Source of the DNA: Adineta ricciae | Lineage: Eukaryota; Rotifera; Eurotatoria; Adinetida; Adinetidae | Assembly: GCA_905250025.1 (NCBI GenBank) | Contig: CAJNOJ010000052.1 | Location: 424,013 to 488,012 of the forward strand | DNA: 64,000 nt | Direction of reading: 5' to 3' | Translations under genes and position numbers: made by a program | Shown here: in pieces, positions 35,508 to 64,000 of the stretch | How the letters are laid out: each line of letters begins with the position of its first letter | Position numbering within the stretch: the stretch's first letter is position 1 | The notes under the pieces: generated by a model | Seen by the model: the letters and a program-made list of their open reading frames with translations, nothing else | Databases searched by the model: none | What the model was told of the DNA's origin: nothing

Positions 35508-36978
35508 TTATTCCCTTTTCTGAAAGAAAGGGTTATACAGCGGTTAAACGTTGTGCTAAAAAGCTTAAAGTTTGTCTGTCAGTGTGTCTGTCCTATCCAA
35601 TCAGAAATCAGCATTTCTAAAAATCAATGAAATTGATCGATAGTTGTTAGAAAATGATTACCGGTAGGGTAATCGAGGTCGGGGAACTTGAATCTGAGGT
35701 TAGTTTTAACTAATTATTAACTAGCCACGACTTATTAACATCCATTGTCAGAGTAGACCGAAAGATTTCTGACGTCGGGAAATTCGAATTTGAGGGTGAA
35801 TCTCGTCTTGTTTTCTGAGTCTGGGCTTGTTCCTTCCTCTTTACAAAGGAGATATTTTTCTTTATCTGTTCTGAAATCTTTTGTAGAGGATAATGAGCTG
35901 AACGCTATTCATGGACGTCATGTGTACAAAGATAGTAGCTCAAGAACTTACACGAAAAGATCTAATGCATTGTACATAATGATGTTTCTAATCGAAGAAA
36001 TCCGAAAAAGTGATATGAGCTTGGTATGATCTTTGCTTTGTAGACTACCTACATCATGCCTTTTCATGGGAATTTAGTAGAAGTAGTTCGCAAAGTGATA
36101 TACCCGTTAGTGGAATTCCATCTTAGTAACTACTGACGCGTGGACTATACGAAGAGTATTCTGAACACATGCAGCACTAAGAAAGATGTTCGTTTCGAAG
36201 CAAATCATACAATAAGATTTTCTTATCTAGTTTCTTGGGGTAGTCGAATGAATAGAAGATCACGACTGTCGAAGCGTCAATAAAAGAAAACCCAATCATT
36301 CAGTTGGGAAGTTAATCAAAGGCGAAAGGGATAACAGAGACAGCATGGCAATGGCTAGCCGTGAGTGACCGACCGGAGGGAGGTCGACGAACGACTAGGC
36401 GTTTAAATGCTAGATTAATCCTAAAGTGTACGCTTAGAATAACCTTGTCAGGCTTCAGATAATTTTGAAAGGGATTTGACGAATGGATATTCCTCAATGA
36501 AAATATTCGACAAGGTATCACTTTGTTAACAACAGAGAAAAGAATCGGTTTATCACTGGACAACACAGGCGAATGTTCAAACTTTTCAAGAAGTCTACTG
36601 TATATCGTCCGTCTATGAGTGACTTAGTAAAGCATTTATGAAAATTTCCATGCGCGTGATGTGAAAAAAGAAAAACAGAGGACAAAGGTCAATGGTTGGC
36701 CGTGAGTGGCCGTCTGACTAGCCGTTGAGCGATGAATTTTTCAGTCAACATAGTTAGTGCTGGAGAATTCTCCAGTGACAAATGGCTAATCGTTCAGATT
36801 CCTAAAACGACTTTTGCATCCTATTCACTCTAGTGTGTGACATAGTGCCATGATTCAGTTGAGCACTAGTAGCAATCGCAGTGCGTTTTTTCTCTTTCGA
36901 AGTCTCTGAATGTGTTCAGCATCCGGAAAAGTCTTTCAGAAAAGGGTCAGCGAATCCAAAGGATGAGCGTTACTTGTA
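35508..36978 (+). repeat. Dispersed repeat family, copy A
   Basis: About 1.47 kb matching copies B (49728-51440) and C (59107-59988) in inverted orientation. Shared blocks include the right end CTTTCAGAAAAGGG (36933-36946) followed by the AATCCAAAGGATGAGCG segment, a GC-rich block at 36353-36400 with GGCTAGCCGTGAGTG, and the left end CCCTTTTCTGAAAG (35513-35526). The two 14-bp ends are exact inverted repeats of each other. A short frame around KSFVE (near 35875-35895) is also recognisable in copy B. No transposase or reverse transcriptase frame is present, so it looks non-autonomous or decayed. Confidence 0.7.
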
Positions 36979-48578: not shown

Positions 48579-49727
48579 GTTTCACTTTTAACGTTTTCAA
48601 GTAATATGAAAAGTAATTGACTGATAAAAATAGAAGAGAGGAGAGGAAAAGTGAGCGGATTCTCTGGTCTGCTCTCGTTCGATGCAATTTGTTTTGTTTG
48701 TGTTTGGAGTATGTCGATAGTCAGAATACACCTACGTTGACGATGAGGTAGAGAACATTTTCAAAGAAGTAATAGCCGATATAAATGGAAAGTTAAATCA
48801 ACAAGATTATTGTGCTCTATCGATGAGAACGAAGTGTATGAGAACTGCTTGTCAACAGGTAGGAACGTAAGAGAGAGAATACCATACAAGTTCATAAATA
48901 AATATTGACGTTTGATTTTTGATTAATTAGATTGACTGACATCATAATCACGTAGTCAGAACGATTTTAATATAACGATCGCTGATGAATATTTTCATAG
49001 GTAGTTATTTTGATCATTAGAAACGAAATCGAAAAGGATTTCTAGGATTTCTATGGGTAAAAATGAATATTTACTCATTCAATACGAAGTTTGATTTGCT
49101 CATATATTCTCTCACTCGTTTTAATGATTGTGAAACTATGCGTAAGATTTTTAAAGGATCAACAAGAGCTTCACAATCACGAATATTGAACGAGACTTGT
49201 CGATGACTTCTAGAGATGAACCAGAATTCTCCATCGAAACACATAATGGATGACATATTGCAGACGTTGACTGTTAACAACACAACTAAACATGACTTTA
49301 TTCACCATTGAGAAAACTAAACGTATAGACAGTGTATGGCATTGTCAAAATACGACTATTAGATTGGAATGGCATTCAAGGAATATGCAATGTTGCTGGA
49401 TAGTATGCTATTTTTCAGAGGCATCGAATGAGTTTGAACGACAGACGCAATGTGGACGTTTTTCGGTACATAGGGAAAATGCTGAAATTAATTAGAACGG
49501 ATGGGCAGTAGTGCATACTTAAAAGCGTGTACTTATATAAAATAAAAATCTTTCGGTCTGATTCAGAAAAGGGTTTCATGCGGAAATAATAAAAGCAATT
49601 GCATAAAATATAAATTACATATAAAGAGTTCTTAGTTTTAATGTTTTCGTGGGATTGGAAGGAATAGCATTACTACAATTTAAAAAACGAACTATGCATT
49701 GCATTTTCGTCCAATATTTCTAACAAG
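48579..49727. other. Intergenic region before repeat copy B
   Basis: 1.15 kb without a recognised gene. A 70-codon minus-strand frame at 49071-49283 (DGEFWFISRSHRQVSFNIRD) has an unusually protein-like composition but no recognisable relatives, and splice partners upstream are not convincing. Confidence 0.4.
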
Positions 49728-51440
49728 TAGCGCTCATCCTTTGGATTCGCTGACTCTTTTCTGAAAGAATTGTCCCAGTGCTGACCACATTCAAGCACTT
49801 TGAAAGACAACTAAGGCACTGCGATTGCTACTAGTCCTCAACTGAACCATTGCATTATGTCACACACTAGAGTGAATAGAAGACAGAGATTGTTCTTTTT
49901 CAGAAGCCGAACCGATTAACTATTTGTCAGTGAGTAATTCTCGAGAACTAGTTGTGTTGACTGAAAACCCCATCCCACAATGGCTAGTCGTTTGTCAACC
50001 TCCCTCCGGTCGGCCACTCACGGCTAGCCGTTGGCACATATACGATTAGTTTCCCATTTTCACGCCGAACAGTTGGCCCGCTCATAACTGATCGGTTTCT
50101 AATCCGAGATATTGAAACTTTACATAATAGCGTGATTTTTGTCACTGATTCTACTCTTCTTTCCACATGCGAAACTCGATAATTGAGTGGTCTCGTTCTC
50201 AAAAAGAGTATTAGTTAAATTTTTTTAAAGATTATTTAAGGTATCTGCGTCTTTTAACTCTCATTTACACTGAGTCGGTCTGCAACCGAAGCTGTCAAAG
50301 TTCGACATAACTGTGCGATTTACAGGACATTTTCTATTACTCTTTTCAATTTAAAGAGCTGATAATCTGCAGGACTTATTCTCGAAGCTCGAAAGACATC
50401 AGTAATATTCGTTAAAAAATCATTGACATAAACTGAGACTCTTACAAATCTCGTCTCTCAAGTGGTTTTTGAAACAAACGTCTAGTCGTTCGTCGACCTC
50501 TCTCCTGTCGGTCACTCACGACTAGCCCTTACCACCCTACCTCTGTTATGCCTTTCACATTTGACTAACTTTTAAACTGAATAACTGTGCTTCATTTGAT
50601 TGTGGCTTCGAAAGTGCTGATCTTCTATCTATTTGATCCTGAAAAGAAAATAGATTAAAGTTTTATTTTATTATTTGCTGTGAAAAGAACACGCATCATA
50701 ATGCACCCTATGTTTAGAAGACACAAATGGTATTAAGCTTATACCACTTTTTATGATTTCTTGGGCTAGAAATATCATGATGTATGGTATATTAAATCTT
50801 CTTCTGTAAACTTCTAAACTACTCTATTGGTCCACATCACATCCAGCAGTAGCGTTGAAACCACAACCTTCTACAAAAGATTTTAGGACGATAGAGAAAA
50901 ATATCTCTTCTGAAAAAAACGAAAGACGCCGAAGGTTCGTGACTAAGAAAAAACTAACGTCATTATAACGAATTTGACAAGAGAAGTGCCCGTGATATGA
51001 TGGCACACACTTGATTTGGCTTCTTCACGTAAAAAAGCTCCTGTTTAGTTATGAGATACACGCTTATATAGGCAACAGAGAACAATGGATATCAGCCAAG
51101 TACAGCGGTCATGCTAGTGTCGACGAGTCAAGGTCGCATACAGGTCAGAATATAGCAATATATCCCGTTACAGTCATATTTGAGTTCTTCGACCTTGATG
51201 TCCTTCGGTCAACCCTACTCGACAAAAAATTTTTTCTCCTTACTTAATTAGTCAGTTAGCTAATTAGCTAATTAGAATTTTAAGAAACTAACATCAGATT
51301 CGGAACCCTCGACTCCAATTACTTTCCATCAATCGTTTTCTAATAAGTACGGTTAAGTTTTCATTGATTTATAAAATGCTGCAATCTGATTGGATTATGC
51401 AAACAAACTTTTAGCATTTTAATGACCGTATTTTGTCGGA
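49728..51440 (-). repeat. Dispersed repeat family, copy B
   Basis: About 1.7 kb, matching copy A in reverse and copy C in the same orientation. The left boundary has GTAGCGCTCATC and TGGATTCGCTGA followed by CTCTTTTCTGAAAG (49754-49767). The GC-rich block with CGGCTAGCCG occurs at 49982-50030 and a second, diverged time at 50482-50527. The distal end lacks the CTTTCAGAAAAGGG terminus seen in A and C, so this copy is truncated or diverged there. A frame with VLKSFVEGCGFNA corresponds to the KSFVE frame of copy A. Confidence 0.7.
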
Positions 51441-53979: not shown

Positions 53980-56811
53980 CTATACCATCTTGGCGCTCTA
54001 AGAATGAGACAAAACAGAAATTACAAACTTCTTCGACTACAGCGTCAATCTTACTATATTCCTTTCCAATGCATCTGCAATATGTTGAGCTATTTCATCA
54101 CCGATTTGTTTTCCGTCGAGGTTAAGTGTGGTGAGTGTCTGTAGGTGTGAGATAGACTGAGTGCTTCATCTTCTATGAAATCTGATCAATATTACTCCGT
54201 TCGTTCGCAACGCATCCGAAATGTGTTCTGCTCCTCCAGCATCGATTTCGTTGCCCTCGAGGTTAAGCGTCGTGAGTGTCTGTAGGTGTGAGATAGACTA
54301 AGTGCTTCATCTTCTGTGAAATCTGATCAATATTACTGCGTTCGTTCGCAACGCATGCGAAATGTGTTGCGCTCCTCGAGCACCGATTCGGTTCCTACTG
54401 AGGTCAAGTGTGGTGAGTGTCTGTAGGTGTGAGATAGACTGAGTGCTTCATCTTCTATGAAATCAGCTCAATATTACTGCGTTCGTTCGCAACGCATGCG
54501 AAATGTGTTCTGCTCCTCCAGCACCGATTTGGTTGTCCTCGAGGTTAAGCGTAGTGAGTGTCTGTAGGTGTGATATAGACTGAGTGCTTCATCTTCTATG
54601 AAATCTGATCAATATTACTGCGTTCGTTCGCAACGCATCCGCAATGTGTTGCGCTCCTCCAACACCGACTCGGTTCCAACTGAGGTCAAGTGTGGTGAGT
54701 GTCTGTAGATGCGAGATAGACTAAGTGCTTCATCTTCTATGAAATCTGATCAATATTACTGCGTTCGTTCGCAACGCATCCGCAATATCTTGTGCTCCTT
54801 CATCACCGATTTCGTTGACCTCGAGGTTAAGCGTGGTGAGTGTCTGTAGGTGTGAGATAGACTGAGTGCTTCATCTTCTATGAAATCTGATCAATATTAC
54901 GGCGTTCGTTCGCAACCCATCCGCAATATCTTGTGCTCCTTCATCACCGATTTGGTTGTTCTGGAGGTTAAGCGTGGTGAGTGTCTGTAGGTGTGAGATA
55001 GACTGGGTACTGAATCTCCTTCAAAATAAGATCAATATTACCGTATTCGTTCGCAGCGCATTAGCAATGTGTTGAGCTCCTTCAACACCGATTTCGTTCG
55101 CACTGAGGTTAAGTCTGGTGAGTGTCTGTAGGTGTGAGATAGACTGGGTACTGCATCTCCTTCAAAATAAGATCAATATTACCGTATTCATTGGCAGCGC
55201 AATAGCAATGTCCAGTGCTCCTTCAGCACCGATTCCGTTCTCCTCGAGGTGAAGTGTGGTGAGTGTCTGTAGGTGTGAGACAGATTGAGTGCTTCATCTT
55301 CTATGAAATGAGATGAGTATTACCGTATTCGCTCGCAACGCATTAGCAATGTGTTGTGCTCCTTCATCACCGATTTCGTTGCGCCAGAGTTTAAGGGTAG
55401 TGAGTGTCTGTAGGTGTGAGATAGACTGAGTGCTTCATCTTCTATGAAATGTGATGAATATTACCGTATTCGTTCGCAACCCATCCGCAATGTGTTGTGC
55501 TCCTTCAACACTGATTTCGTTCGCACTGAGGTTAAGAGTAGTGAGTGTCTGTAGGTGTGAGATAGACTGGGTACTGAATCTCCTTCAAAATAAGATCAAT
55601 ATTACCGTATTCGTTCGCAGCGCATTAGCAATGTGTTGTGCTCCTTCAACACCGATTCCGTTCGCACTGAGGTTAAGAGTAGTGAGTGTCTGTAGGTGTG
55701 AGATAGACTGAGTGTTTCATCTTCTAAGAAATGAGATGAGTATTACCGTATTCGTTCGCAGCGCATTAGCAATGTGTTGTGCTCCTTCATCACCGATTTC
55801 GTTCCAACCGAGGTTAAGTGTGGTGAATGTCTGTAGGTGTGAGATAGACTGAGTGCTTCATCTTCTAAGAAATGAGATGAATGTTACCGTATTCGTTCGC
55901 AGCGCATTAGCAATGTGCTGTGCTCCTTCATCACCGATTTCGTTCCTACTGAGGTCAAGTGTGGTGAGTGTCTGAATTGAAGTAATGTATGAGGAAAAGC
56001 GTAGATAGTAAAGAAAACCTTTGATGGCACTTCTGATGGTAAGTATGGGATTTAAAATAGTTATGTTTGGGGTGGATTTTTAAGGAGGAGTTGGGTGTAG
56101 ATGTGAATTATTCGAGTGAATGATGATGCTAGTTGTTGTTGCGGAAAGAAGTGCTGTGTCGAGAATCGAGACTGGAGAAAACTGTGATAGGATGGAGTCG
56201 GACAGAGTAGGAGATAAGTTTCAATATTTGTTGGTGGTACTGAGATTTCTCTTTTGAAGACGCACTGCAGTGAAATCCAAGTCCTACTAGTCTGAAATGT
56301 AGGAGCGGGACTTGATGAAGTAAGAGTACAGAGCTTTTGGCTTCAGTAGATGAGTTCTGTCAAAAGTTGTAAGTGCTGCAATTTTTGTATCGAGTAGTGC
56401 AACGCAGAAACGGTAACGCATAAGTAGGCGTTTTGCTCGTTCATGGTCGGGTATCGGACGAATGGATCCTCAATGTACATCAAATAAAAGGGAAACAGTG
56501 ATGAAATGCTTGATGTCATAGGACTTCTGGCTGTGGTTGTCTCATCCTAGGATATCGTTTGTGAATTATGAAATTAGTTTGGGTTTTCCTATGAGGGAAT
56601 CTACGACATCAAAGACCATTAAGCTTATGTATAGCACAGCCCACAAGAATGTTAGGATACCAAGTAAACTTACTCGATATCGCTGGTAGGTACTCAGAAT
56701 CTGATTGAGCCGTCGACAAATATTTTGCATTGAACAAAATAGCGTCCGGTCATTTTGATGATCCATAATTCGATAAACTAGTTCGACGGGTAATGTTGAA
56801 AATGTGTGCAT
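53980..56811 (-). CDS. F-box protein with leucine-rich repeats encoded by a 14-unit exon array
   Basis: Exon 1 (56674-56811) codes TFSTLPVELVYRIMDH then an F-box pattern ending NQILSTYQRYR, with a GTAAGT donor. A second open segment at 56343-56546 follows an acceptor (ATCCTAG) and is conserved in the second copy of the gene, but the join between it and the LRR exons is not resolved. Fourteen LRR exons of 84 nt then follow, from 55888-55971 down to 54055-54138, each in phase 0 and separated by 57-bp introns. A last tiny exon (53980-53997) ends in TAG. Each LRR reads LTTLNLxxNxIGxxGAQHIA, the ribonuclease-inhibitor/NLR type. F-box proteins recruit targets to SCF ubiquitin ligases; LRRs pick the target. 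The total, about 510 aa or more, is provisional because of the middle region. Confidence 0.7.
54055..55971 (-). repeat. Tandem array of 14 exon-intron units, period exactly 141 bp
   Basis: Exon upstream ends fall at 55971, 55830, 55689, 55548, 55407, 55266, 55125, 54984, 54843, 54702, 54561, 54420, 54279 and 54138, always 141 bp apart. Each unit is an 84-bp LRR exon plus a 57-bp intron (GTAATATT start, ACCTACAG end). There is no indel in the whole array. Introns are nearly as similar as exons. Confidence 0.95.
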
Positions 56812-57698
56812 GTTGTATTTCAATCGTGCAGCAGACTGTACCGTAGTGACTGGAAGCGATGAAAAATATTTGGTTTTGTTCGTTATGAGGAGTAATTCAT
56901 GGTGATGATGTAGATATACATGTTTTTGACGAAAACAAATGACGTGTAATCATTTCAATTGTTATGAATTGTTGGCGTGCACAGATAGATGGCATTAGGA
57001 TACGTAGGCGCCGTGAATTCTGTTTTCACAAATACAGTGGTAAATTAAAAAATTGAAAACAAGGACATCTTTTATGACTTTGGGTCCTTTGGAAACCGAT
57101 TCTATTTTCATCAATAGGAATTAACATCTCTAAATTTATTTTTTTAACGAAAAATTGTAATGAAATATGAAAAACTCTACAGCTTAGATTATAGAGATTC
57201 ATTTTAATTATGTATCTTTTGTTTTCGAGAACACTAAATGTTACCCAGTCCGTTTTCACTGATTGTTTTGCAACATTTGACGCTTTTTTAGTTAAAAACA
57301 AACAGATGATTGTAATAAGTTCGACGATATAGTTTGCTGATAGAGCTTCATGCAGCATCCCTCAGTGTGTTTGTTTCATTTTTTCAAATCTTATTCGATG
57401 ATAAATAAAACAAAAACAAAAAATGATTGTTTTTCAACCTGAAAAAAAACAGTCACATGATCTTTTATTTCTTTTTAAAGCCAAAAACTATGAAATTGAG
57501 CTACGGTTTACTGCAGAGGTGAAATTAACTAGAACATTAAAGTTAAGTTAAATTGCTATCCCTAAGCTGCGTATCTGGTTTTTGTGTTGAAGGGTGAGTT
57601 AGAACATTCATTATCTTTCATATAAATAGAATGACAGCTCCCTCATCGAGGTGCTCTAACAATTTGCTGTCAATTTATTTTGATGAATTAATTACCCT
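55972..57698 (-). repeat. Segmental duplication, copy 1 (F-box gene 5' half and promoter side)
   Basis: This stretch is closely similar to 61956-63745 in the same orientation, with substitutions and small indels only. It covers the region between the LRR array and the F-box exon, the F-box exon and about 900 bp upstream. Similarity stops at the ATTACCC near 57698. Confidence 0.9.
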
Positions 57699-59106: not shown

Positions 59107-59988
59107 CAAGTAGCGCTCATCTGTTGGATTCGCTGACCCTGTTCTGAAAGAATTACAAGACTCAGATAAAAACTCTAACGTATATCTCACTCTAACGCGC
59201 TTCGAACTAAAGCCACTTTTATGCACATTCTTTTCTTTTAATCCTTTTCTACTTTATTCATGCCAAACTGCTTTCAATTCATTTGTCCAAAGACATGGGC
59301 AAAAGGAACACTGTTTCTAAAGATTTACGAATCGACTCTCTTCCCACTATTTATAATCAAAAATCAATTTACTTACACTTATTTTATCTCTTCTAGGACA
59401 TCCAAACAAACTCCTGGTCGCTCGTCGGTCTACCTTCGGTCGACCACTCGCGGCTAGCCGTTACATGTCCAACTTTCATTCTTTCATCTAGCTTAAATTC
59501 CCTTCAGTAATGTTATCAATATACTGATGAGTATGAGTATCCAGCCGGCGGATGCTAATCAGCTATTTGGTTTTATTCTACATATTGCTGCTTCAAACAC
59601 TATCGCCCACAAAAAATCTTCCTTGCGAAAAATCGTACTTTTTCTGAAAAAAACAGAACAGAATTTTTCTACAGAAAAACTAATAATACCAGATTCGATA
59701 TCTTCGACGCCGATTACCTTTCGGTCGAGTCTTACTCAACAAACAAAAAATTTTTCATTGCTTAATTAATAATTAAGTAATTAGCTGTTTGAAGTCTCGA
59801 AGAACTGATATCGGATTCGAGATCCTCGACCTCGGTTACCTCATCAGTGGTCAATCTTTGATGATTATAGATAAATTTCATTGATTTATAATATGCTGCA
59901 ATCTGATTGGATTATGCAAAAAAAAACTTTATGCATTTTCACGACTGTATTTATGTCGCTATAACCATTTCTTTCAGAAAAGGGAATA
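59107..59988 (-). repeat. Dispersed repeat family, copy C
   Basis: About 0.88 kb. It starts with the same GTAGCGCTCATC and GGATTCGCTGA as copy B, then CCCTGTTCTGAAAG (59137-59150), and ends with CTTTCAGAAAAGGG (59971-59984), an imperfect inverted match (13 of 14). The GC-rich block is at 59414-59460. It is shorter than A and B by internal deletion. Confidence 0.7.
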
Positions 59989-61482
59989 ATAAGTTCAATT
60001 TTTTTGGTTCTAACTTAAAAAAGAATAATGCAACATAATGACGTTTATCTTCTACACTTATAATTTTGCCGAGTTTGAAGCCAACTAAATTGAACATTAT
60101 TTGATTAAAAGAATAATTAAACACAAGTATAGACTTCCCAGGTCGAACAACCCGGCAGAAAACTATCAGTTCCGCGACTTTCCGTAGAAGCAGTATTCCA
60201 GGACCCAACGACTTGATTTAATTAATTCTGCTCGGAACTAGTCAAAACCCTTGGCTGGACACAATTATCGGAGTTTTATGACGCATTCCCAGCCGGAGAA
60301 TAGGGCGGCTTCCTGTATATTTTCGTCGGAAATTAGCGGAATGTAGCTTCAGGAATCGTTGTTTTCACCGCTACTACATCATTAACTGAGTTCTGTTTAT
60401 TATTCGATTCCGGGGCGACAGAAGCAAGAGAGATGTTTCCATCCGGTGTTATTGAAGAAGCCATTGTTCATAAAAAGATTGAAATTGATAACTATAAATC
60501 AACTAGGTTTGGTTCTATCATTCATTTAATATTTCATTAGTATAGTTCATTTATTGAGCCTCATCTTTCTTCTGAGAAATTTCACACTAATTTATATGAG
60601 AATAAAAATGTGATTTTTTTCTTCAAATATAAAATACTTTCGTAAAAATCATTTATTTGTTTATTTATTATTTAGCTAAAGAAAGAGGGCGCTAGAGTTT
60701 AGCTTGTTCGTGTATAGTCTACTGAGATCATTGATTCTGGTACTCGTATTCGTGTGATTCCCTCAAGAACCAACAGGAAAAACATGAGATTGATAGAAAT
60801 TGAAAACAGGAATTCTTGAAACGAATACTGTGACTGGTTTTGGTCGATTCCTTTGAGTTCTGGAGAAAATCGGATGACTTCCGTTACTGCCTTCATTCAA
60901 AGAATTCCTGCTTTCACTTTCTATAAAATTCCAATGACTTCTTTTCGGATCGGGCTCGTGCTTGCCGACATAGGTGATGAAAATATTTTCAACAATACAT
61001 AAAGATTTGTGCAATGAACGATGATCACTCGGTCTTGCTTTTTGATACGATCATAATCATAACCGATGTTTTAGGGAATTCGATTCAAAATCACTATTGT
61101 TACCGGATATGCTATATACCTATTACAAGTGCAGTTGTATTCAGTGCAAATTCGATGTCCAAAGTCATGATCTTTACAGATTTCTTTAGAATTCTAACAA
61201 TCAGTGTGAAGCTAACACGTCGTTTGTTCGTGCCAGCTTCACATCGATATTGACATGACTATGAAAGTCAATTTCAGATGAGACAATAGATGACATTAAC
61301 TTAAATCTCGTTTGTCAGGTGGATATTTCTCTCTACGAGAAAATGTCACCGAACATATCTTTGACCTTCATCTGATCATTTCTACTTATATCAAAAGTTC
61401 ATCAAGTGAATAGACAAGTATATCATCCGACATTTTCTCGTTAACAATCTGTAACGAATTATCAAGGCGAAGATCTCTTTTN
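59989..61482. other. Intergenic region with a possible gene relic
   Basis: 1.5 kb. On the plus strand at about 60380-60540 a frame reads SLTEFCLLFDSGATE, then FPSGVIEEAIVHKKIEID, ending in a stop, and the same frame upstream to about 60290 is broken by two TAG codons. It looks like a decayed gene but I do not recognise the family. The rest has no supported feature. The sequence stops abruptly at the N at 61483. Confidence 0.35.
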
Positions 61483-61483
61483 G
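61483..61483. other. Ambiguous base N at a probable assembly junction
   Basis: The only N in the window lies inside an LRR exon. The sequence to its right is a perfect array unit, that to its left is not. This is what a mis-join or a collapsed tandem array would give. Confidence 0.8.
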
Positions 61484-61955
61484 CTCCTTCATCACCGATT
61501 TCGTTCCCACTGAGGTCAAGTGTGGTGAGTGTCTGTAGGTGTGATATGGACTGAGTGCTTCATCTCTAATCAAATGAGATCAATATTACCGTATTCGTTC
61601 GCAACGCATCCGCAATGTGTTGTGCTCCTTCATCACCGATTTCGTTCCCACTGAGGTCAAGTGTGGTGAGTGTCTGTAGGTGTGATATGGACTGAGTGCT
61701 TCATCTCTAATCAAATGAGATCAATATTACCGTATTCGTTCGCAACGCATCCGCAATGTGTTGTGCTCCTTCATCACCGATTTCGTTCCCACTGAGGTCA
61801 AGTGTGGTGAGTGTCTGTAGGTGTGATATGGACTGAGTGCTTCATCTCTAATCAAATGAGATCAATATTACCGTATTCGTTCGCAGCGCATTAGCAATGT
61901 GTTGTGCTCCTTCATCACCGATTCGGTTCCCACTGAGGTAAAGTGCGGTGAGTGT
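61484..61955 (-). repeat. LRR exon-intron array 2 (four units, 141-bp period, last cut)
   Basis: Exon upstream ends at 61955, 61814, 61673 and 61532. Three consecutive units, including introns, look identical base for base, unlike the diverged units of array 1. Confidence 0.9.
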
Positions 61956-62827
61956 CTGAATTGAAGTAATGTATGATGAAATGCGTAAGTAGTAAAGAAA
62001 ACCTTTGATGGCACTTCTGATGGTATGTATGGGATTTAAAATAGTTATGTTTGGGGTCGATTTTTAAGGAGGAGTTGGGTGTAGATGTGTATTGTTCGAG
62101 TGGATGAGGAGGCTAGTTGTTGTTGCGGAAAGAAGTGCGTGTCGAGAATCGAGACTGGGGAAAACTGTGATAGGATGGAATCGGAAAGAGTAGGAGATAA
62201 GTTTCAATATTTGTTGGTGGTACTTAGATGTCTCTTTTGAAGACGCACTGCAGTGAAATCCAAGTCCTACTAGTCTGAAATGTAGTAGGAGGACTTGATG
62301 TACCCGTGTTGAGAATGAAGATTGGCATAGGTGAAGCAACTGTACAGTGTTGTTTGCTTCAGTAGATGAGTTCCGTCAAAAGTTGTAAGTGACGCAATTT
62401 TCTTATTGAGTAGTGCAACGCAGAAACGGTAACGCATAAGTAAGCGTTTTGTTCGTTCATGGTCGCGTATCGGACGAATGCATCCTCAACGTACATAAAA
62501 TAAAAGGGAGAGAGTGATGAAATGCTTGATTTCATATGACTTCTGGCTGTGGTTGTCTCATCCTAGGATATCGTTTGTGAATTATGAAATTAGTTTGGGT
62601 TTTCCTATGAGGGAATCTACGACATAAAATACCATTAAGTTTATGTATAGCACAGTCTACAAGAATGTTAGGTTACCAAGTAAACTTACTTGATATCGCT
62701 GGTAAGTACTCAGGATCTGATTGAGCCGTCGACAAATATTTTGCATTGAACAAAAAAGCGTCCGGTCATTTTGATGATCCATAATTCGATAAACTAGTTC
62801 GACGGGTAATGTTGAAAATGTGTCCAT
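61484..62827 (-). CDS. Second F-box/LRR gene, 3' end lost at an assembly break
   Basis: Paralogue of the gene at 53980-56811. F-box exon 62690-62827 starts MDTFSTLPVELVYRIMDH and ends STYQRYQ with a GTAAGT donor. The equivalent second open segment and the region leading to the first LRR exon are conserved. LRR exons lie at 61872-61955, 61731-61814, 61590-61673 and 61449-61532, but the last is cut by the N at 61483, so only its first 49 bases are present. All four units carry the same Ser-Gly pair between Leu and Asn. What lies beyond (to the left) is unrelated sequence, so the true number of repeats and the stop codon are unknown. Confidence 0.65.
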
Positions 62828-63745
62828 GTTGAATTTCAATCGTGCAGCAGACTGTACCGTAGAGACTGGAAGCGATGAAAAATATTTGGTTTTGTTCGTT
62901 ATGAGTAGTAACTCATGGTGGTAATGTATTTATATATGTTTTTGACGAAAACAAATGACGTGTAACCATTTCAGCAGTTACGAATTGTTGGCGTGCGCAG
63001 AGAGGTGGCGTTAGAATACGCATGCTCATTGAATTCTGTTTTGACAGATACAGTGGTAAATTAAAAAATTGAAAACAGGATATCTTTTATGATTTTAGGC
63101 CCTTTGGAAACCGATTCTATTTTCATCAAAAGGAATTAACATCTCTAAATTAATTTTTTTAACTAAAACTTGTAATGAAATATGAAAAACTCTACAGCTT
63201 AGATTAGAGATCCATTTTAGTTATGTATGTTTTGTCTTCGAGAACACTAAATGTTACCCAGTCAGTTTTCACTGATTGTTTTGCAACATTGGACGTTTTT
63301 TAGTTAAAAAAAAACAGATGATTGTAATAAGTTCGACGATATAGTTTGCCGATAGAGCTTCACGCAGCATCCCTCAGTGTGTTTGTTTCATTTTTTCAAA
63401 TCTTATTCGACAATAGATAAAACAAAAACAAAAAATGATCGTTTCTCAATCTGAAAAAAACAAAAAATGATCGTTTCTCAATCTGAAAAAAACAGTCACA
63501 TGACCTTTTATTTCTTTTTAAAGCCAAAAACTATAAAAAAAAATTGAGCTACGGTTTACTGCAGAGGTGATGTTAACTAGAACATTTAAAGTTAAGTTAA
63601 ATTGCTATCCCTAAGCTGCGTATCTGGTTTTTGTGTTGAAGGGTGAGTTAGAACATTCATTATCTTTCATATAAACAGAATGACAGCTCCCTCATCGAGG
63701 TGCTCTAACAATTTGCTGTCAATTTATTTTGATGAATTAATTACC
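61956..63745 (-). repeat. Segmental duplication, copy 2
   Basis: Counterpart of 55972-57698. It contains a local direct duplication of about 30 bp near 63432-63490 (AAAAAATGATCGTTTCTCAA twice) that copy 1 lacks. Similarity to copy 1 ends at 63745 where a hAT-like terminus begins. Confidence 0.9.
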
Positions 63746-64000
63746 CAGAGATGGGCAAGTCAAGTCATTTTTTGACTTGGCGATTTTTATTTTGATCTTT
63801 GACTTGACTTGACTTGACTTGACTTGAATGCATATGAAATTTCAAGTCAAGTCAAAAAGCATTTGTAGCGAGGTCTTCAATGCACTGCATATTCTATAAC
63901 TAATTTGAAATATTACACGAAATGTACATAAAAATAATGAAAATTTTGTTTTGAACGAGACTCTGATTTATGTGAGATTTGAATTGCACAGTCCAATCAG
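63746..64000. mobile_element. Left end of a hAT-like transposon (runs off the window)
   Basis: The segmental duplication is interrupted after TTACC by CAGAGATGGGCAAGTCAAGT. CAGRG-TGGGCAA is a common form of hAT terminal inverted repeats. It is followed by subterminal TTGAC/GTCAA repeats in both orientations. No transposase is seen in the 255 bp available and the right end and target duplication are outside the window. Confidence 0.5.
63799..63827. repeat. (TTGAC)n tandem repeat with inverted copies nearby
   Basis: Five TTGAC units, with the inverted form TCAAGTCAAGTCAA at 63842-63855 and CAAGTCAAGTCA at 63756-63767. The arms can pair as hairpins. Confidence 0.8.

Follow-up and report, generated by a model that had tools for sequence, protein, structure and literature searches.

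The locus described here raises the question of whether a strictly regular array of exons, each encoding one leucine-rich repeat (LRR), could serve as a recognition surface that is diversified in the germline, and by which routes its repeats have come to differ. The array lies on the minus strand of a 64,000-nucleotide stretch of Adineta ricciae DNA (contig CAJNOJ010000052.1, positions 424,013 to 488,012; hereafter the window), and it is read from 55971 down to 54055 in the window numbering that is used throughout. Our preferred reading, to which we assign a probability of roughly 0.55, is that the array belongs to a gene with an F-box exon, 14 LRRs on one exon each and a short tail. Its product, an F-box/LRR protein some 443 residues long, would work as a germline-diversified adaptor.

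The array consists of 14 exons of 84 bp that alternate with 13 introns of 57 bp (55971-54055, minus strand) at a pitch of exactly 141 bp. Each exon is in phase 0 and encodes one 28-residue LRR of the ribonuclease-inhibitor type; all 14 are open, and when joined they encode 392 residues. Tandem Repeats Finder independently delimited a repeat at 54045-55974 with a period of 141 and 13.7 copies. Together with our check of the letters, this bore out what an earlier reading, made without database searches (hereafter the sequence-only reading), had claimed about the coordinates, the division of 141 bp into 84 and 57, phase 0, the number of 14 units and their exact register. If an exact-length LRR exon array is taken to be a run of at least three consecutive LRR exons of one length and one phase, the sequence holds such a run of 14 exons with 13 phase-0 introns, as listed below (all read from the sequence).

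55888-55971, minus strand: LRR exon 1
55747-55830, minus strand: LRR exon 2
55606-55689, minus strand: LRR exon 3, whose unit shares a 90-bp identical run with unit 7
55465-55548, minus strand: LRR exon 4
55324-55407, minus strand: LRR exon 5
55183-55266, minus strand: LRR exon 6
55042-55125, minus strand: LRR exon 7
54901-54984, minus strand: LRR exon 8
54760-54843, minus strand: LRR exon 9
54619-54702, minus strand: LRR exon 10, first of the block 10-11 that is 94.0% identical to block 12-13
54478-54561, minus strand: LRR exon 11
54337-54420, minus strand: LRR exon 12
54196-54279, minus strand: LRR exon 13
54055-54138, minus strand: LRR exon 14, the most distant from the consensus (18 differences)
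54139-55887, minus strand: span of the 13 array introns of 57 bp each

All 13 array introns start with GTAA, end with CTACAG and carry an in-frame stop, so that the array is coding only in its spliced reading. None of the 41 stop-to-stop open reading frames (ORFs) of at least 110 amino acids in the window overlaps the array on either strand. An intronless repeat of 47 residues, which the divisibility of 141 by 3 would allow, was ruled out by the intron stops together with the lack of an ORF of that size across the array. As every exon is in phase 0 with matching splice sites, any donor would join any later acceptor in frame.

The spliced array protein matched LRR_6 in Pfam with an E value of 1.6e-84, 13 stretches passing, and its 28-residue repeats with the pattern LxxLxLxxNxIGxxG likewise place it in the ribonuclease-inhibitor-type class. 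Its matches in the PDB include ribonuclease inhibitors and NLR proteins, among them porcine ribonuclease inhibitor 1dfj (E 3.1e-44) and the GALA protein 9j7j (E 6.6e-40); with both of these the likeness lies in the LRR class by sequence, and gene structure was not compared. GALA proteins, we assume, carry F-boxes. A TonB Plug match of the array protein in Pfam (24.3 versus a cut-off of 23.9 bits, with no stretch passing) was taken as a repeat artefact.

The codon and unit-pair statistics cover units 1-13; exon 14, which is not followed by an array intron, was left out. Mean pairwise identity was 88.1% for the introns versus 81.9% for exons 1-13 (80.6% for all 14 exons). The introns, which the sequence-only reading had described as nearly as similar as the exons, are instead more alike, although the difference is only suggestive (the bootstrap 95% interval of the pooled exon-minus-intron difference over columns, -0.008 to 0.132, just includes zero). 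Exon diversity exceeds intron diversity because it is concentrated in codons 6, 8, 9, 11 and 14, inside which it reached 0.397, versus 0.135 outside them and 0.119 in the introns. The ratio of replacement to silent rates (dN/dS) over units 1-13 was 0.70 overall; 13 scaffold codons gave 0.22, and codons 8, 9, 11 and 14 gave 4.5. At these four codons replacement diversity was 0.51, compared with 0.23 for silent sites and 0.12 for the introns. By these comparisons the scaffold codons look constrained and codons 8, 9, 11 and 14 look hypervariable.

Neutral simulations were run on the tree of the units under six settings with 500 runs each. The 10 codons that show no replacement difference among units 1-13 were matched in 0 or 1 of the 500 simulations per setting, and no simulation under any setting was as diverse in replacements at codons 6, 8, 9 and 11 as the units themselves. 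Overall replacement diversity as low as that observed was found in 11, 0, 0, 98, 24 and 4 of 500 simulations.

Two alignments to porcine ribonuclease inhibitor (1dfj) were obtained; in the second, residues 1-13 of unit 5 pair with RLKTLWLWECDIT, and LRR positions 6 and 8 fall on both tryptophans of LWLWEC. We take these two tryptophans to be ligand-contact hot spots, as positions 8, 9 and 11 of a late human repeat presumably are too. On that assumption about contacts, the alignment supports a location of the variable residues where this LRR class can bind ligands.

The closest unit pairs are 3-7 (96%) and 1-2, 8-9, 10-12 and 11-13 (94% each). The two-unit block 10-11 is 94.0% identical to block 12-13, against a median of 83.3%, and the identical run of units 3 and 7 extends over its 90 bp from mid-exon through the intron; we read both, from the sequence, as footprints of turnover. 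Unit similarity dropped with separation (Mantel r 0.35, p 0.01), more clearly in exons (p 0.002) than in introns (p 0.22). Exon distances correlated weakly with those of the downstream introns (Mantel r 0.17, p 0.10) and were uncorrelated with those of the upstream introns (Mantel r -0.04, p 0.59).

A second copy of the gene (copy B, 61483 to about 63746) lies about 6 kb from the one described so far (copy A); its F-box exon and array are arranged alike, and its flank is 92% identical to that of copy A over 1133 aligned positions. The three full units of copy B are 95-100% identical, a further footprint of turnover. Its introns are identical to one another, but their identity to those of copy A reaches no more than 87% (rounded down), which points to homogenisation within arrays after the gene duplication. 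The sole N of the window, at 61482, stands exactly at the end of the copy B array, so that this copy, probably truncated by an assembly gap, is uninformative on unit number.

61483-61955, minus strand: copy B array, three complete units, the second and third identical, and a partial fourth, ending at the N at 61482
62690-62827, minus strand: copy B F-box-like exon (Pfam F-box-like, E 0.0024, below the cut-off)

The upstream ends of the two copies, 57412-57697 and 63456-63746, are 95% identical up to 57697 and 63746, and a TTGAC tandem run follows past copy B at 63799-63827.

Site patterns among the units allowed the sources of diversity to be compared. Among informative two-state sites, 32 of 55 pairs of replacement sites were incompatible versus 12 of 105 pairs of silent plus intron sites (p 0.004 in a permutation stratified by minor count; 8 of 55 for the latter once identical patterns were collapsed), and with multi-state sites added the figures were 97/153 versus 35/210. 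This pattern is best explained by recurrent replacement at the same exposed residues, which would on this evidence account for a large part of exon diversity, and it weakened conversion as the main source of that diversity. Short conversion tracts across the variable segment are possible. A test modelled on the pairwise homoplasy index (PHI) was positive at three window sizes (p 0.01, 0.006 and 0.0005), a result that tract sharing and clustered selection are each able to produce; together with the 11 incompatible pairs among 50 of silent versus intron sites, it suggests some exchange between units. The sequence-only reading, which had named whole-unit duplication or conversion as the source of the similarity, thus fits the two-unit block, the identical run and the close units of copy B, and leaves out the recurrent replacement that seems to make up much of the exon diversity. 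It had also held that crossing over or conversion between any two units changes repeat number without harm. The architecture would indeed tolerate gain, loss and exchange of units, but conversion alone alters sequence and not unit number, which is altered by unequal exchange or slippage.

Upstream of the array, an F-box-like exon of 46 codons opens with an ATG at 56811 and is followed by a GTAAGT donor, and we infer that it is joined to the LRR array in one transcript. The order and orientation of the F-box exon and the array are kept in both gene copies. The F-box exons of copies A and B differ by 5 substitutions in the 137 bp counted, 3 of them at third codon positions, and the stretch from F-box exon to array differs by one indel of 33 bp and one of 1 bp. 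The donor at 56673 is the sole match to GT[AG]A[GT] within 57000-55951, other donor forms not having been searched. Downstream of exon 14, a 14th intron of 57 bp and a five-codon terminal exon are plausible, and unspliced read-through past exon 14 likewise ends after 5 codons.

56674-56811, minus strand: F-box-like exon, 46 codons, below threshold in Pfam
55972-56673, minus strand: putative leader intron, 702 bp, GTAAGT ... TTCAATTCAG, with its donor at 56673
53998-54054, minus strand: candidate intron 14, 57 bp, GTAAGA ... TTCTTAG, counted by eye
53980-53997, minus strand: candidate terminal exon (five codons plus stop), placed by eye

Going by the protein families, the predicted role of the F-box is attachment to an SKP1-cullin ubiquitin ligase, and a ligand would be bound in the horseshoe that the LRRs form. 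Diversity would arise in the germline by two routes, exchange between units and selection on exposed residues. By the first, similar 141-bp units would exchange, with the result that units are duplicated, lost or overwritten; this would be harmless because every exon is 84 bp long, in phase 0 and flanked by matching splice sites, and such symmetric exons would permit gain and loss of units and in-frame skipping. By the second, each repeat would keep its scaffold, and selection would alter its exposed residues at the end of the strand and in the loop after it. A continuing change in unit number would follow the first of these routes.

Several observations weigh against this reading. The codon sets were chosen after the column table had been inspected, and with exon 14 omitted; when it is added, codons 10 and 16 vary too and 8 invariant codons remain. 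The fairer test, in which each simulation picks its own top four codons, was weak, with 1 of 300 in a first run and 13, 32, 81, 3, 6 and 29 of 500 in the six settings. In the setting that gave 98/500, the overall level of replacement diversity does not clearly stand out as low, and for the five concave-face x positions of the LRR (3, 4, 6, 8 and 9) taken together dN/dS is 0.57, owing to the near-invariant threonines at positions 3 and 4. Open exons and intact splice ends, taken alone, are modest evidence: neutral decay would leave the 14 exons stop-free with a probability of 0.22 (lenient) or 0.02 (independent), and would keep GT..AG in the 13 introns with a probability of 0.17 or 0.015, respectively. 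The F-box exon itself scored below the Pfam cut-offs (F-box-like, E 0.0022 and 18.1 bits versus 24.3; F-box, E 0.045 and 14.1 bits versus 20.5), the longer ORF around it scored a little better with the unrelated family DUF4818 (E 0.0023) than with the F-box (E 0.011), both below cut-off, and of 18 PDB matches with E values up to 10, none was to an F-box protein. The array acceptor failed a pyrimidine filter that five other acceptor-like sites upstream passed, so that the 702-bp leader intron can be given only tentatively; between the F-box exon and the array no reading frame for an intermediate exon was found, and none was excluded.

One rival view is that the array is a fossil in an ordinary LRR gene, with past duplications like those of other genes that have one LRR per exon, a unit number that is now fixed and variable codons that reflect relaxed constraint and not selection for recognition. 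As 72 of the 78 unit pairs are merely 77-90% identical, most duplications appear to be old, and the weakness of the own-choice test for variable codons points the same way; moreover, zebrafish NLR LRRs also stand on single exons, and their variation is judged, in the available text of that source, unlikely to serve specific recognition (PMC4852459). Relaxed constraint does not, however, readily account for a replacement diversity at codons 8, 9, 11 and 14 that exceeds the diversity of silent sites and introns, nor does a static array fit the recent tract of units 3 and 7, the recent block 10-11/12-13 or the mutually identical introns of copy B, homogenised after the gene duplication. We consider this view possible but on balance unlikely.

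Other explanations start from the same anatomy. If the symmetric phase-0 exons were skipped in varied combinations, one gene could yield many LRR isoforms, as the in-frame joining of any donor to any later acceptor would allow and as the reported alternative splicing of per-LRR exons in Ectocarpus (PMC11378527, from the available text) would suggest; three of the 13 array introns were folded, however, and were unremarkable (z = -0.58, 0.79 and 1.31; regulatory elements were not looked for), and we hold such a splicing-made repertoire to be quite improbable. It is slightly less improbable that the locus forms a wider repertoire system in an animal possibly without regular meiosis, in which unit number or order would be altered by break repair between units, or exons combined at splicing, so that target-recognition surfaces linked to protein degradation would differ between individuals or cells; this idea too we regard with much doubt. 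Very improbable is a decaying pseudogene or an assembly product, in which the array would be a remnant whose register and similarity come from duplication alone. The openness of the exons is not very unlikely under lenient neutral decay, copy B is interrupted by an N, in neither copy does the stretch from F-box exon to array show a clear reading frame, and identical units, if present, could have been collapsed in assembly; the constraint seen on scaffold codons and the intactness of all 14 exons nevertheless speak against decay.

Arrays with one LRR per exon of exact length are already known, and this one differs from them in exon length, phase, intron length and partner domain; the published systems are compared as far as the available text of each source describes them. 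In Tetrahymena, tandem arrays of LRR exons have one exact length (90 bp) and one intron phase (phase 2), unequal crossing over has been proposed, and the exact 90-bp, phase-2 form is thought by its describers to have evolved only once (PMC6564038). The array shares with these the exact length and the single phase, but its own exons are 84 bp in phase 0 with 57-bp introns, and, unlike T. thermophila genes, which often have a retrotransposon adjacent, it has an F-box-like exon upstream and is probably of animal origin. Brown-algal ROCO genes also have one LRR per exon, with exon shuffling and diversifying selection at ligand-face sites, whereas their exons are of 72 bp and phase 2, their partner is a ROC-COR GTPase and their alternative splicing is documented (PMC11378527); no ROC match was found by Pfam in the array protein or the F-box exon. 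Zebrafish NLR-B30.2 genes carry LRRs on single exons as well, with counts of 0-6 and, in certain groups, over 20 of a different type, but with a NACHT partner and with LRRs described as not particularly variable; an array in exact register is not mentioned in the available text (PMC4852459). Pfam gave no NACHT or NB-ARC match in the array protein or the upstream exon, the DNA between and around them not having been fully scanned. As far as its anatomy shows, the array may work like the Tetrahymena, brown-algal and zebrafish systems. Closer by, Adineta vaga has expanded LRR families, one LRR gene of which was possibly moved by a Penelope element; the likeness is in the expansion. The main text of that paper makes no use of the term F-box, and its available text describes no exon array (PMC3846280). 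Among the listed titles and openings of abstracts of the open-licence literature, no LRR exon array with an F-box or in rotifers was found.

Among prokaryote contigs, 45 loci carry the same LRR class, 44 of them labelled metagenome-assembled. A strict count of LRR motifs on the matched strand gave at least two in 38 loci, one in 5 and none in 2, and in the 38 loci where spacing was measurable it was never 141 bp; most values equal 72, 81 or 84 bp or a multiple of one of them. The top-listed of the 45 (59% identity), whose contig bears the label of a metagenome-assembled Chlamydiae bacterium, has eight LRR motifs at 84-bp spacing. Viral contigs gave 21 pattern stretches, no relative and no match to a 17-base splice-junction pattern.

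The window has a GC content of 36.0%, and the ORFs neighbouring the locus include a neurotransmitter-symporter gene. For two of its introns homology left one candidate each, of 59 and 230 bp, and the short one counts in favour of the preferred reading. For comparison, A. ricciae has a GC content of 35.6% and most bdelloid introns are of 30-100 bp (PMC5916493, from the available text). Elsewhere in the window, inverted duplicate segments at 35849-36977 and 49723-50907, about 13 kb apart, share three stretches of 76-82% identity, and a repeat of about 83 bp, perhaps a dispersed element, occurs on the same strand at 51359-51438 and 59876-59958 with 88% identity.

The locus adds a probable animal case to the layout of exact-length exons with one LRR each. 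As well-conserved introns, scaffold codons that hardly change and exposed codons that change fast lie together within 1.9 kb, the roles of duplication and selection may be separated in it. If unit number varies between isolates, the gene would offer an experimentally simple case of the evolution of a recognition surface by exon-array turnover, perhaps one coupled to protein degradation.
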